NCBI GenBank assembly: GCA_022508805.1 | Contig: JAFLUM010000002.1 | Span: forward strand, 179,394-217,262 | Origin: Oscillospiraceae bacterium | Lineage (GTDB): Bacteria; Bacillota; Clostridia; Oscillospirales; Acutalibacteraceae | Length of the DNA: 37,869 nt | Reading direction: 5' to 3' | Part shown: piece by piece, positions 33,072-37,730 of the stretch | Numbering within the stretch: position 1 is the stretch's first letter | Layout of the letters: each line of letters begins with the position of its first letter | Notes under the pieces: model-generated | Database searches by the model: none | Told to the model about the DNA's origin: nothing | Seen by the model: only the letters and a program-made list of their open reading frames with translations | Made by a program: the position numbers and the translations under genes

Positions 33072-34534
33072 TTTTCGCTTACCTCCTTCAAGATAATATA
33101 CGCTACGGTGGCAAGGCTCAACGCCTCGCAGTAATCGGTAGTTATTTTAAATCTGCCGTTTTTGAGTCGCCTTAAAAGCTCGCTCACGCGCTTATATCCC
33201 GTTCTGACCGCATCGTCATTGGCGGGCATTACGAAATGCGAGCGCTGCATAATACCCCGTATTTCGGTACGTACGCCCTTCATAAGCGGCGCACCGTCAA
33301 GCTCCACGGGCGGTATATAGGTGTCACGAACCTTCGGGTAACCCAATTCGATACAGCGTTCAATATCATCGGCACAGCGTTTGGCGAATACCAAAGCCTC
33401 CAAAAGAGAGTTGCTTGCAAGCCGGTTTTTGCCGTGAACGCCTGTATTGGAGCATTCGCCCACTGCATAAAGGCGTGAAACGGTGGTTCTTGAGTTTAAA
33501 TCAACCTCTATTCCGCCCATCAGATAATGCTGACACGGGAAAATCGGAATAAGATCTTTTGTTATGTCCACGTTATATTTTAAACAGCCCTCGTAAATGC
33601 CGGGGAAACGGTTTAACAGATATTCGCGGTCACGGTGAGTAATATCAAGATAAAAGTTGTTACTGCCCGTGCGGCGGGATTCTATTATTATCGCCTTTGA
33701 CACAACGTCACGTGGGGCAAGCTCCAATCTTTCGTCATAGCGGTGCATAAATCTCTCTTTATTGCAGTTGAGAAGGTATGCGCCCTCACCTCTTACCGCC
33801 TCGCTGATTAAAAACTGCTCTCTGCCGTCGGAATTGAAAGCGGTGGGGTGAAACTGAACATAGCTTAAATTTTTTATTCTTGCGCCAAGCTCGTACGCAA
33901 GACGTATTCCGTCACCCGTGGCAACTGACGGATTGGTCGTGTATTTATAAACTCTGCCGATTCCGCCCGTAGCAAGTACGCAATAGCTCGCCAAATATTC
34001 GTCATATCCGCCGTCTGTCAGCGCATGGGCACAGATGCCGCTTTTCACTCTTGAAAGCTTGAATACAGGGGCATTTTCAACAAGCGTTATATTGCTTTTT
34101 TCGCGTACTTTTTTTAGGAGCTTGTCAACGATTTCGGCGCCTGTGGTGTCCTTATGATGGACTATTCTTCTGCGGCTGTGACCGCCCTCCAGCGTTTTTT
34201 GCAGAGTTCCGTCAGCATTTTTATCAAAATCCACGCCGTATTCCATAATTTTGCGAACCTGATCGGGTCCCTCGTGCACAAGAACGGTCACGGCATCAAT
34301 GTCGTTGGCATGCTGACCTGCGATCATAGTGTCCTCAATGTGCAAATCAAAGCTGTCATTTTCAAAGCTCAACACCGAAGCCACGCCGCCCTGAGCCAAG
34401 GAGCTGTTTGAAAGAGTGTCCTTATTTTTTGAAAGGACGGTAATATTAAAATTTTCAGGCAGGCAAAGAGCGGTATACAGTCCTGCCGCGCCGCAGCCGA
34501 CTATTAAAACATCGCACCTTTTAAGCATATTCAT
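33068..34534 (-). CDS. nadB: L-aspartate oxidase
   Basis: NadB is an FAD flavoprotein that oxidises L-aspartate to iminoaspartate, the first de novo step to NAD; in anaerobes fumarate replaces oxygen. The 488-residue product has the FAD-binding VLIVGCGAAGLYTALCLPE at the N-terminus, SSLAQGGVASVL, the catalytic-site ATGGIGRVY and HPTA, GEGAYL, and a C-terminal RLASNSLLEALVFAKRC. Compared with Escherichia coli NadB (540 residues) the C-terminal helical domain is shorter. Two ATGs lie near the start; the first (34534) is kept, but the second, 6 bases later, is nearly as good. The quinolinate synthase gene nadA, usual between or next to nadB and nadC, is not in the window. Confidence 0.95.
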   Translation of the reverse strand: MNMLKRCDVLIVGCGAAGLYTALCLPENFNITVLSKNKDTLSNSSLAQGGVASVLSFENDSFDLHIEDTMIAGQHANDIDAVTVLVHEGPDQVRKIMEYGVDFDKNADGTLQKTLEGGHSRRRIVHHKDTTGAEIVDKLLKKVREKSNITLVENAPVFKLSRVKSGICAHALTDGGYDEYLASYCVLATGGIGRVYKYTTNPSVATGDGIRLAYELGARIKNLSYVQFHPTAFNSDGREQFLISEAVRGEGAYLLNCNKERFMHRYDERLELAPRDVVSKAIIIESRRTGSNNFYLDITHRDREYLLNRFPGIYEGCLKYNVDITKDLIPIFPCQHYLMGGIEVDLNSRTTVSRLYAVGECSNTGVHGKNRLASNSLLEALVFAKRCADDIERCIELGYPKVRDTYIPPVELDGAPLMKGVRTEIRGIMQRSHFVMPANDDAVRTGYKRVSELLRRLKNGRFKITTDYCEALSLATVAYIILKEVSEK

Positions 34535-34624
34535 ATATCCTTTCTAAGGCGAACTTATACAAATAACATAATAACACATATTTATGAAAAATAACAGGAT
34601 TTTTTCCATATTTTATAACTTTCA

Positions 34625-34652
34625 GTAATTTGTATATAAATGTACAAATTAC
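34625..34652. promoter_or_regulatory. Operator-like palindrome over a candidate nadB promoter
   Basis: GTAATTTGTA (34625-34634) and TACAAATTAC (34643-34652) are perfect complements separated by 8 bases. On the minus strand the palindrome covers the spacer and -10 of a candidate promoter: TTGAGT (34660-34655), 16-base spacer, TATATA (34638-34633). That leaves a leader of about 95 bases before nadB. The layout fits a dimeric repressor; NiaR, the nicotinate repressor of many Firmicutes, is one candidate, but I cannot confirm its motif. Confidence 0.5.
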
Positions 34653-34695
34653 CAACTCAATATACAGAAAAATCACAAATTCATACGCTGTTTGC

Positions 34696-34724
34696 TTGAC
34701 ATAATTTGAAGCTTATGATATACT
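34696..34724 (+). promoter_or_regulatory. Promoter of scfA
   Basis: TTGACA (34696-34701), a 17-base spacer and TATACT (34719-34724). The -35 is a perfect match and the -10 has five of six bases. It lies about 50 bases before the scfA start codon, with GGAG at 34765-34768. Confidence 0.85.
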
Positions 34725-34776
34725 TTCACGGTAGACTTATTTGTCCGATTTTATTTTTTAGATTGGAGTTTTTTAA

Positions 34777-34926
34777 ATGGAAAGAATCAGAACTATCGAA
34801 ACAAGAGATCTTGTAGAGAGTGCCGAAAAAGGCGGCTGCGGTGAGTGCCAGACTTCTTGCCAGTCAGCTTGCAAAACCTCCTGCGGTGTTGCTAACCAGC
34901 AGTGCGAAAACTGCGAGGAGAAATAA
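34777..34926 (+). CDS. scfA: SCIFF (six-cysteine-in-forty-five) RiPP precursor peptide, variant
   Basis: A 49-residue ribosomal peptide precursor. It has the family's leader (MERIRTIETRDLVESAEK) and the very conserved core CGECQTSCQSACKTSC, then a short tail GVANQQCENCEEK. SCIFF peptides are modified by a dedicated radical SAM enzyme that joins a cysteine to a nearby residue by a thioether bond, and they are near-universal in Clostridia. Two points differ from the usual sequence as I recall it: the residue after the last cysteine of the core (position 37) is Gly where characterised SCIFFs have the acceptor Thr, and there is a seventh cysteine (Cys46). Cysteines are 21, 24, 28, 32, 36, 43 and 46. 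The gene has its own promoter, a good ribosome binding site and a terminator before the maturase. Confidence 0.95.
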   Translation: MERIRTIETRDLVESAEKGGCGECQTSCQSACKTSCGVANQQCENCEEK

Positions 34927-34955
34927 TTTTCGTTTTATTTAAGACGCACTAAAGG

Positions 34956-34987
34956 CAGGTAATGCAGTTTTGTATTACCTGTTTTTT
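34956..34987 (+). terminator. Intrinsic terminator/attenuator between scfA and scfB
   Basis: CAGGTAAT (34956-34963) pairs perfectly with ATTACCTG (34974-34981) across a 10-base loop, followed by six T residues. It ends 16 bases before the scfB start. Most transcripts should stop here, with read-through giving a smaller amount of maturase. Confidence 0.85.
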
Positions 34988-35003
34988 ATCATCGGAGGAA
35001 GAT

Positions 35004-36368
35004 ATGGTACATCAGTATAAGCTAAACGGCTATAACATAGTTCTTGATACCTGCAGCGGTTCAGTGCATCTGACGGATGAGGTAGCCTTTGACATTATTG
35101 CTGTTTTTAAAGAAAAATCGGCTAATGAGATAGCAGAATACATAACCGAAAAATACAAGGACGAAAAAATTACAACGCAGGATGTATTTGACTGTATTGA
35201 AGATATAAAAGCACTTGAAAGCGCAGGCAAGCTGTTCACACCCGACACATATGAGGATATGGCCTTCGACTTCAAAAGCCGTAATACAGTAGTCAAGGCG
35301 CTATGCCTGCACGTGGCGCACACCTGCAACCTAAACTGCGAATACTGCTTTGCAAGCCAAGGCAAATATCACGGTGAACGGGCGCTTATGAGCTATGAAA
35401 CGGGAAAGCGTGCTCTTGATTTCCTTATTGAAAATTCAGGAACACGACGTAATCTTGAGGTTGACTTTTTCGGCGGAGAGCCGCTGATGAATTTTGAGGT
35501 GGTAAAACAGCTCGTTGGATACGCTCGAGAGCAGGAAAAAATACATAACAAAAATTTCCGCTTTACGCTCACTACCAACGGTGTACTCATTGACGACGAT
35601 GTTATCGACTTTTGCAACAAAGAAATGAGCAATGTGGTCTTAAGCCTTGACGGCAGAAAAGAGGTCCACGACCGCTGGCGCAAGGACTACCTCGGACGTG
35701 GAAGCTATGATATTATAGTTCCTAAATTTCAAGAATTTGTACGTCGTCGCGGCGGTAAGAATTACTATATACGCGGCACGTTTACACACAATAACACAGA
35801 CTTTACTAACGATATTTTTCATATGGCAGATTCAGGCTTTACAGAGCTTAGTATGGAACCTGTGGTTTGCTCCCCCGAGGACGCAAGCGCATTGACTGAA
35901 GACGATTTGCCTGTTCTTTTTGAGCAGTATGAGATACTTGCCAAAGAGATGATCCGCCGCAAAAAGGCAGGTAACGGATTCACATTCTATCACTATATGC
36001 TTGATTTAAAGCACGGTCCGTGCATTTATAAGCGCATTTCGGGCTGCGGCTCCGGCACGGAGTATATGGCTGTTACGCCCGCCGGCGAGCTTTACCCCTG
36101 CCACCAGTTTGTGGGCGATAAAAAATATCTGCTGGGCAATATTTACGACGGCGTTACGAATAAGGAAATTCAAAATGAATTTAAGCTCTGCAACGCATAT
36201 GCGCGATCGGAATGTAAGGACTGCTGGGCAAAGCTTTACTGCTCGGGCGGGTGTGCGGCTAACTCGTATCATTCCACGGGAAAAATCACAGGTATTTATA
36301 AATACGGCTGTGAGCTGTTTAAAAAGCGTATTGAGTGCGCCGTAATGCTGCAGGTGGCAGATAAATAA
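35004..36368 (+). CDS. scfB: SCIFF maturase, radical SAM / SPASM thioether-forming enzyme
   Basis: A 454-residue radical SAM enzyme that cross-links the SCIFF peptide. An N-terminal peptide-recognition region (about residues 1-90, MVHQYKLNGYNIVLDTCSGS and onward) precedes the radical SAM motif HTCNLNCEYCFA with cluster cysteines 108, 112 and 115. The partial TIM barrel carries DFFGGEPLMNFE and TTNGVL; the C-terminal SPASM region has GCGSGTEYMAVTPAGELYPC and CKDCWAKLYCSGGCAANS, giving ligands for two further 4Fe-4S clusters. The ATG at 35004 has GGAGGAAG directly upstream; the longer frame to 34962 runs through the terminator. It pairs with scfA and is followed after 15 bases by the decarboxylase gene, so the two may be cotranscribed. 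Confidence 0.95.
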   Translation: MVHQYKLNGYNIVLDTCSGSVHLTDEVAFDIIAVFKEKSANEIAEYITEKYKDEKITTQDVFDCIEDIKALESAGKLFTPDTYEDMAFDFKSRNTVVKALCLHVAHTCNLNCEYCFASQGKYHGERALMSYETGKRALDFLIENSGTRRNLEVDFFGGEPLMNFEVVKQLVGYAREQEKIHNKNFRFTLTTNGVLIDDDVIDFCNKEMSNVVLSLDGRKEVHDRWRKDYLGRGSYDIIVPKFQEFVRRRGGKNYYIRGTFTHNNTDFTNDIFHMADSGFTELSMEPVVCSPEDASALTEDDLPVLFEQYEILAKEMIRRKKAGNGFTFYHYMLDLKHGPCIYKRISGCGSGTEYMAVTPAGELYPCHQFVGDKKYLLGNIYDGVTNKEIQNEFKLCNAYARSECKDCWAKLYCSGGCAANSYHSTGKITGIYKYGCELFKKRIECAVMLQVADK

Positions 36369-36383
36369 GTTAGAGGTACAGTT

Positions 36384-37730
36384 TTGGACACGCCGATTTT
36401 TGATTTTGTGAAAAATTACACAAAAAGTCAAAGGACCCGACTGCATATGCCGGGTCATAAGGGTGTGCCTTTTCTCGGCTGTGAGGGCTACGATATTACT
36501 GAAATCGGCGGTGCGGACGAGCTGTACTGCCCCAACGGAATAATACTTGAAAGCGAAAAAAATGCATCTAAGCTTTTCGGAACTGCGCGCACGGTATACT
36601 CTGCAGGCGGATCGTCGCAAAGTATAAATGCAATGCTGTTTTTGGCATATTCCAAGGCTGAAAAAGACGGCACTCGTTCTTTTGTACTTGCAGGCAGGAA
36701 TGCGCACAAATCGTTTATATATGCCGCCGCAAAGCTGAATATTGACGTCGAGTGGATTTATCCGCAAAACAGTAAGGATATTTGCAGTTGTGTTATTACT
36801 CCCGAAATGCTGCAAAATGCACTTGCAAAGCTTAATAAAAAGCCGTTTGCCGTGTTTGTGACAAGTCCTGATTATCTCGGCAAAATGACGGATATACGCG
36901 GACTGTCAAAAATATGCAGACAGTATGATATCCCCCTGCTTGTGGATAACGCGCACGGGGCATACACAGCATTTCTTGAAAAAAATGCTCACCCTATTCA
37001 TTTAGGTGCGGATATATGCTGTGATTCAGCGCATAAAACTCTTCCTGTCCTGACAGGCGGCGGATATTTGCATATTGCGAATGATGACCGCTTTGGTTTT
37101 GCTGACGGAGCGGTAAGGGCAATGGAAATTTTCGGCTCTACAAGTCCGTCATATTTGATTCTTTCCTCACTTGATCTTTGCAATAAATATATAAGCGAGG
37201 ATATAAAAAAAGATTTGTGTGACTGTGTGAAAAAAGCGGCAAAAATCAAAAAACTTATGAAAAAAATCGGTATTCCCGATATATCAGATGAGCCTTTAAA
37301 AATCACTGCTGATTTTTCGGAATTCACTGCTCCTGAAGGCGGATTTTCACAGTATTTCAGAGACTGCGGTATTGAATATGAATATGCTGACGGCGAAAAT
37401 ACAGTATTTATGCTCTCTCCGCAGAACAGTGATGAGGATTTCCAAAAATTAGAATCAGCATTTAAGAATTTGCCGTTAGGAATAAGGAATACATCAAGAG
37501 AGATTTTACCGATATTTCCCGCCCGGCGGGCTATGAGTGTCAGAGATGCGGTATTTTCGCAAAGCGAAGAAACAGACGTTTTTTGCGCCTTGGACAGAGT
37601 TTGCGCCTCGCCTACGGTATCCTGCCCCCCTGCCGTTCCCATTGCAGTGAGCGGTGAAATTATAAACGAAGATCATATCCGACTTTTTAAACGGTACGGT
37701 ATAAATAAAATTGCGGTTGTAACGGAATAG
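36384..37730 (+). CDS. Orn/Lys/Arg-type PLP decarboxylase
   Basis: A fold-type I PLP decarboxylase of the ornithine/lysine/arginine family, 448 residues. It shows the N-terminal RLHMPGHKG, the PLP-binding lysine in CDSAHKTLPVLTGGGYLH, the DNAHGAY motif and FGSTSPSYLILSSLD. It is shorter than Bacillus SpeA/YaaO (about 480-490) at the C-terminal end, as seen in YaaO-type proteins of Clostridia. The start is a TTG (36384-36386) with GAGG about 8 nt upstream; no ATG comes before the conserved LHMPGHKG. The substrate (arginine, lysine or ornithine) cannot be decided. It lies 15 bases after scfB. No clear terminator follows before the tRNA promoter. Confidence 0.88.
   Translation: MDTPIFDFVKNYTKSQRTRLHMPGHKGVPFLGCEGYDITEIGGADELYCPNGIILESEKNASKLFGTARTVYSAGGSSQSINAMLFLAYSKAEKDGTRSFVLAGRNAHKSFIYAAAKLNIDVEWIYPQNSKDICSCVITPEMLQNALAKLNKKPFAVFVTSPDYLGKMTDIRGLSKICRQYDIPLLVDNAHGAYTAFLEKNAHPIHLGADICCDSAHKTLPVLTGGGYLHIANDDRFGFADGAVRAMEIFGSTSPSYLILSSLDLCNKYISEDIKKDLCDCVKKAAKIKKLMKKIGIPDISDEPLKITADFSEFTAPEGGFSQYFRDCGIEYEYADGENTVFMLSPQNSDEDFQKLESAFKNLPLGIRNTSREILPIFPARRAMSVRDAVFSQSEETDVFCALDRVCASPTVSCPPAVPIAVSGEIINEDHIRLFKRYGINKIAVVTE

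Follow-up and report, generated by a model that had tools for sequence, protein, structure and literature searches.

SCIFF peptides are widespread in Clostridia (a match was present in 322 of the 391 genomes that we sampled there), yet the one studied bond has two conflicting mappings, as recounted in reviews (PMC8326336, PMC8172795). By their account, a single bond has been reported in each of the two SCIFFs studied: Tte1186a, paired with Tte1186 in Caldanaerobacter subterraneus, and CteA (thermocellin), paired with CteB in Clostridium thermocellum. Cys32-Thr37 was mapped in vitro for both (Bruender 2016, Grove 2017), whereas CteA made in E. coli was reported to carry Cys32-Thr34, joined through the Thr C-gamma (Hudson 2019; reviewed in PMC8326336, PMC8172795). 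In these reviews the discrepancy between the two CteA mappings stands, and the native bond set is left open (PMC8326336 / PMC8172795).

Here we describe a SCIFF pair in a 37,869-nucleotide stretch of DNA (the window) from an Oscillospiraceae bacterium. It shares with CteA/CteB the register of the mapped residues and the enzyme family, and with Tte1186a the mapped donor, Cys32; however, where CteA has Thr37 and the Tte1186a bond is described as reaching Thr37, the window peptide has Gly37, along with a seventh cysteine (PMC8326336, PMC8172795). Freyrasin PapA/PapB and QhpD, like the window maturase, belong with the radical SAM/SPASM thioether makers, but they are described as using Asp or Glu acceptors in other substrates (PMC8326336, PMC8172795, PMC11002830), and for PapB, Asp-to-Ala changes are reported to abolish the bond at that place (PMC8326336 / PMC8172795). 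Sactipeptides such as subtilosin A and ruminococcin C also contain radical SAM thioethers, and their C-alpha bonds would match a glycine acceptor, but they are made by other enzyme families.

The peptide and its maturase

The precursor gene scfA (34777-34926, forward strand) encodes 49 amino acids with cysteines at 21, 24, 28, 32, 36, 43 and 46 in the translated reading frame. It scored 81.3 bits against TIGR03973 (cut-off 50, E 3.3e-23) and 83.0 bits against the Pfam SCIFF model PF13165 (cut-off 27), so the family match is not due to chance. The residues of concern below are Cys32 (34870-34872), the donor in the published mappings according to the reviews (PMC8326336, PMC8172795); Thr34 (ACC, 34876-34878); Gly37 (GGT, 34885-34887), where the peptides that we call T-type have Thr; and the seventh cysteine, Cys46 (34912-34914). 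SCIFFs as defined by TIGR03973/PF13165 have six cysteines in about 45 residues, to which Cys46 is an addition, and an adjoining maturase that passes the TIGR03974 cut-off. This peptide is the only SCIFF found in a search of the window's own genome.

After a 77-nt spacer follows scfB (35004-36368, forward strand), whose product scored 766.6 bits against TIGR03974 (cut-off 425) and 575.8 bits against the crystal structure of CteB (5wgg), its nearest solved relative, over residues 1-451. An RRE is described for CteB (PMC8326336 / PMC8172795), and by homology the window maturase probably has one at its N terminus. Among the best 25 of the 74 families matched, only TIGR03974 was over its cut-off: on the side of the freyrasin and QhpD thioether makers, TIGR03906 (274.3 bits) and NF047865 (282.6 bits) were both below theirs, and no sactisynthase family reached its own, the RumMC model NF035951 giving 113.9 bits against 720. 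The CX3CX2C motif (Cys108, 112 and 115) and Cys101, 340, 348, 366, 404, 407, 413, 417 and 436 were Cys in all 345 full-length maturases tabulated, a set in which repeats of one genome are counted and two rows without a peptide label are omitted. With TIGR03974 over its cut-off and every cluster cysteine kept, we rejected the possibility of a broken maturase. Judged from its sequence, this is a Gly37-type SCIFF pair of the standard kind.

The first-pass annotation had read the locus well in these respects: the family, the glycine at residue 37, the extra cysteine and the complete set of radical SAM and SPASM cysteines were as it described, and its expectation of an active enzyme agrees with what the TIGR03974 score and the intact cysteines predict. 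The Cys32-Thr37 register on which it relied is one published mapping; the second, Cys32-Thr34 through C-gamma, it had missed. Its choice between a bond on the glycine alpha carbon and one on some other residue therefore leaned on one of the two mappings recounted in the reviews; given that Thr34 is present in the window and that a Cys32-Thr34 bond has been reported, a glycine bond is possible but not needed.

Distribution of Gly37 and of the tail cysteine

We extracted and aligned peptides by script from four samples. In the 80 named loci nearest by maturase similarity, a biased choice, all 78 peptides had Gly37; the remaining two loci (L043 and L091) are cut some 150 bases before the maturase begins and are without a peptide. 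All eight Faecalibacterium and all three Ruminococcus bromii loci in this set were of the Gly37 type, which therefore concerns abundant gut bacteria. Within the family to which the window belongs, a match was present in 144 of 200 genomes (the window's own counted), and their 145 peptides had Thr (70), Gly (61), Ser (11) or Ala (2) at residue 37, with one cut off at a contig end. Elsewhere in the class, eighty matching genomes spread over 78 other families (two of them sampled twice) gave 81 domains, 65 with Thr and 16 with Gly, the latter from 15 genomes in 15 families. Finally, a peptide was present in 23 of 39 genomes of the window's genus, always with Gly37. In these alignments Gly37 is a clade trait that marks a whole maturase clade in gut clostridia. 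A one-off change or sequencing error was rejected, as the residue is found clade-wide.

A cysteine beyond position 44 was present in 19 of the 23 genus genomes with a peptide but was rarer among the family's Gly37 peptides (7/61). At least seven cysteines were counted in 49 of the 145 family peptides, and at least six in 140 of them and in all 81 class domains. Among the peptides read, the tail cysteine is thus a common feature of the genus and of some of its relatives, R. bromii among them.

The first-pass annotation had proposed both of these counts, Gly against Thr at residue 37 and cysteines per peptide, and had presented Gly37 as a peculiarity whose novelty would fall if it proved common in the clade and a mapped Thr-free bond had been reported. 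Gly37 did prove common, and as a peculiarity it does not survive these frequencies. The other half of that proposition found no counterpart: a mapped bond for a Gly37 SCIFF did not appear in the portions of the literature searched, which included PMC11002830, PMC9413430, PMC12802319 and PMC13289728 and lay outside subscription papers. A Ser32-type SCIFF (see below) did not appear in them either. Taken alone, the locus is ordinary; its usefulness comes with the natural variant series to which it belongs.

The pair is patchy within the genus: 23 of its 39 genomes carry peptide and maturase together, both over the cut-off, and five genomes of 98-99% completeness (G098, G208, G230, G232 and G233) have neither over the cut-off. 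Elsewhere, one locus (L259, genome G240) holds two tandem SCIFF units in a single open reading frame, with 12 cysteines in total, and in one genome with a maturase but no scored peptide (G784) the peptide is interrupted by a run of N.

Natural variants and candidate cross-links

We tabulated residues 32, 34 and 37 across 391 loci (392 domains, with repeats of one genome counted). The combinations were CTG (213), CTT (160), STS (11), STA (1), CVT (4), SVT (1) and VTA (1), with one domain truncated (L271, at a contig end, left out at residue 37). Thr34 was kept in 213 of 213 Gly37 rows, where each of the four Thr codons encodes it, and Gly37 itself is written with all four Gly codons within the clade; at the level of codons, this mixture suggests selection on both residues.

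Twelve of the 144 family-sample genomes, our unbiased basis, have a Ser32/Ser37-type peptide as their one SCIFF match, along with a full-length maturase that keeps every cluster cysteine. We also searched 398 family and 394 order genomes with a profile of Ser32 peptides (A1), which by design favours Ser32 with Ser37, and read the best 30 loci from each of the two sets of matches (291 and 292). Including these targeted loci, the type was present in 26 genomes of three families (L278, L340, L350, L354, L356, L359, L362, L364, L367, L373, L379, L380, L400-L422, L430, L435 and L442), 25 with Ser37, one with Ala37 and all 26 with Thr34. A maturase over the cut-off was found in 15 of 15 of these genomes tested, and maturase matches were also present in the loci of the other 11 genomes. 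This clade, with its maturase, shows that Cys32 cannot serve as donor in every SCIFF. One genus (g77) has both a Ser32/Ser37-type peptide (L350) and a Gly37 peptide (L480).

In the peptides read, the sole replacement of Thr34 was Val, which also has methyl groups in the gamma position and whose codons here are two base changes away from those of Thr. Eleven fragmentary or gap-broken rows (L453, L472, L474, L476, L487, L499 twice, L500 twice, L501 and L503) were omitted from this survey of variant genera. It occurred in 13 genomes of three genera: nine, in genera g55 and g87, combine it with Cys32 and Thr37, while the four genomes of genus g68 combine it with Ser32, Asp35 and Asn36 and keep Thr37. 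The g68 loci (L272, L494, L495 and L496) therefore have neither Cys32, Thr34 nor Cys36, and all four genomes have a maturase over the cut-off. Within g87, genome G740 has Thr34, whereas L275, L383, L504 and L505 are the Val34 peptides of G086 and G193, genomes of about 1 Mb; their 2-kb loci contain no maturase, and a maturase over the cut-off lies elsewhere in the genome. Cys36 is lost with Thr37 kept in L273, L285 and L485.

In the counts, residues 32 and 37 tend to go together. Where Cys32 is present and residue 37 readable, the latter is Thr or Gly in 377 of 377 rows; where Cys32 is absent, it is Ser or Ala in 13 of 14 (repeats of one genome counted in both). By genome, with the targeted loci included, the corresponding figures are 394 of 394 and 27 of 31, the four exceptions being the whole of genus g68. 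On maturase trees, for which no root was inferred, Thr37 is the dispersed state, and its lineages surround a single set that unites the Gly37 and Ser32/Ser37 types (48 rows, support 96; 81 rows, support 99 on another tree). Two Thr/Gly changes suffice on a 142-row tree, namely one switch and L025 (genome G083), the only Thr37 exception, whose adjoining maturase falls inside the Gly37 part; the same assembly, which may be mixed, has on a different contig one more peptide (L312), this one with Gly37. Cys32 was lost three to four times on these trees and, except in g68, residue 37 left Thr/Gly too. Because the losses are so few, the association falls short of significance (median p of the sign tests 0.25 and 0.5), but the pattern weakly hints at a link between 32 and 37.

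We tentatively favour a reading in which the window pair is a Gly37-type SCIFF pair that joins Cys32 to Thr34 through C-gamma, with Gly37 not the acceptor. The conservation of Thr34 across the Gly37 rows despite four codons, suggestive of selection, argues for it, as do the C-gamma bond reported for CteA made in E. coli and the restriction of Thr34 replacements to Val, which keeps the gamma-methyls. The reported loss of the PapB bond upon Asp-to-Ala change is a further argument against any acceptor whose side chain is truncated. Against Cys32-Thr34, two in vitro studies map Cys32-Thr37 according to the reviews (PMC8326336, PMC8172795), the weak covariation of 32 and 37 hints at a link between them, Thr34 stays in the Ser32 clade where Cys32 is gone, and conservation of the core as a whole is too high for Thr34 to be distinctive. 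Moreover, the retention of Gly37 through four codons with one exception implies that residue 37 matters somehow. The in vitro mapping in T-type SCIFFs would instead suit a SCIFF maturase that makes a sactionine, keeping the 32-37 register and joining Cys32 to the Gly37 alpha carbon. The covariation of 32 and 37, the retention of Gly through four codons and the differences between G- and T-type maturases at positions 107 and 111 (beside CX3CX2C) and 350 all fit this bond. We nonetheless consider it unlikely: the coupling lacks significance, a whole genus without Cys32 keeps Thr37, PapB as described refuses Ala for Asp (PMC8326336 / PMC8172795), and the maturase differences follow clades. Indeed, Asp107, the residue of T-type enzymes, is found together with Ala111 in two basal Gly37 members, so no single maturase position decides between Gly and Thr; we rejected that idea, as 107, 111, 350 and 439 all track clades.

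Also unlikely, though rather less so, is a physiological product with donors beyond or instead of Cys32 (Cys28, Cys36 or Cys46), linked to Thr34 or to different acceptors; the lone Cys32 bond would then be a partial in vitro product. Such donors would accommodate the Ser32/Ser37 clade and g68, both of which keep their maturases without Cys32 (and in g68 without Cys36), as well as the near-universal six cysteines and a native bond set that is open in the review cited above; but only one bond is reported for each SCIFF studied, and the odd lineages may have changed their substrate use secondarily. It is very unlikely, in our judgment, that residue 37 stands outside the chemistry in both types and that the Thr/Gly split is one inherited switch under core constraint. 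The two changes that suffice on the tree would allow this, and neighbours 38-41 are almost as conserved; yet Gly, with mixed codons, extends to 15 families besides that of the window, and Ser or Ala is seen at this residue solely in peptides that have lost Cys32. A wider scheme that splits SCIFFs by cross-link, into a Thr37 type, a Gly37 type with a Cys32-glycine C-alpha sactionine and a Ser32/Ser37 type with another donor, is distinctly improbable.

These lineages amount to natural experiments with their own maturases: Gly37 peptides are without Thr37, Val34 peptides without Thr34, the Ser32 clade without the mapped donor, and g68 without Cys32, Thr34 and Cys36. Such native variant pairs make the disputed cross-link testable and could help to settle its place.

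Transcription and a proposed course of maturation

Upstream of scfA lies a sigma-70-type promoter-like site (34696-34724, forward strand; TTGACA-N17-TATACT, with a TG preceding the second hexamer), matching at 11 of 12 positions. Positions 34500-35100 contain three promoter-like sites against a shuffled mean of 2.2, so it is the score and placement of this one that speak for it. Between scfA and scfB, a hairpin ending in a U run (34951-34986, forward strand) can be read as an attenuator. The spacer (34927-35003) folds at -22.7 kcal/mol (z -4.43), and a stricter scan listed no terminator in 34500-35100. Of 368 spacers from relatives, a set that includes near-copies, 344 were 30-250 nt long; with a laxer script, a hairpin with a U run was found in 317 of these 344, against 112, 106 and 117 in three mononucleotide shuffles.

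For the favoured Cys32-Thr34 bond, we infer the following regulatory and chemical steps. The peptide would be transcribed from the site at 34696, and the hairpin after its stop codon would allow no more than a fraction of transcripts to extend into the maturase gene, an attenuation that would keep the peptide in excess of the enzyme. The leader would bind the N-terminal RRE of the maturase, which would generate a 5'-deoxyadenosyl radical and take a hydrogen from C-gamma of Thr34; that carbon would then be joined to the sulfur of Cys32. Gly37 would be retained to maintain the core's shape, and the thiol of Cys46 would be an extra one. Downstream of the pair, a gene resembling Orn/Lys/Arg decarboxylases (36384-37730) starts 15 bases past the maturase stop codon and may belong to the same transcript.
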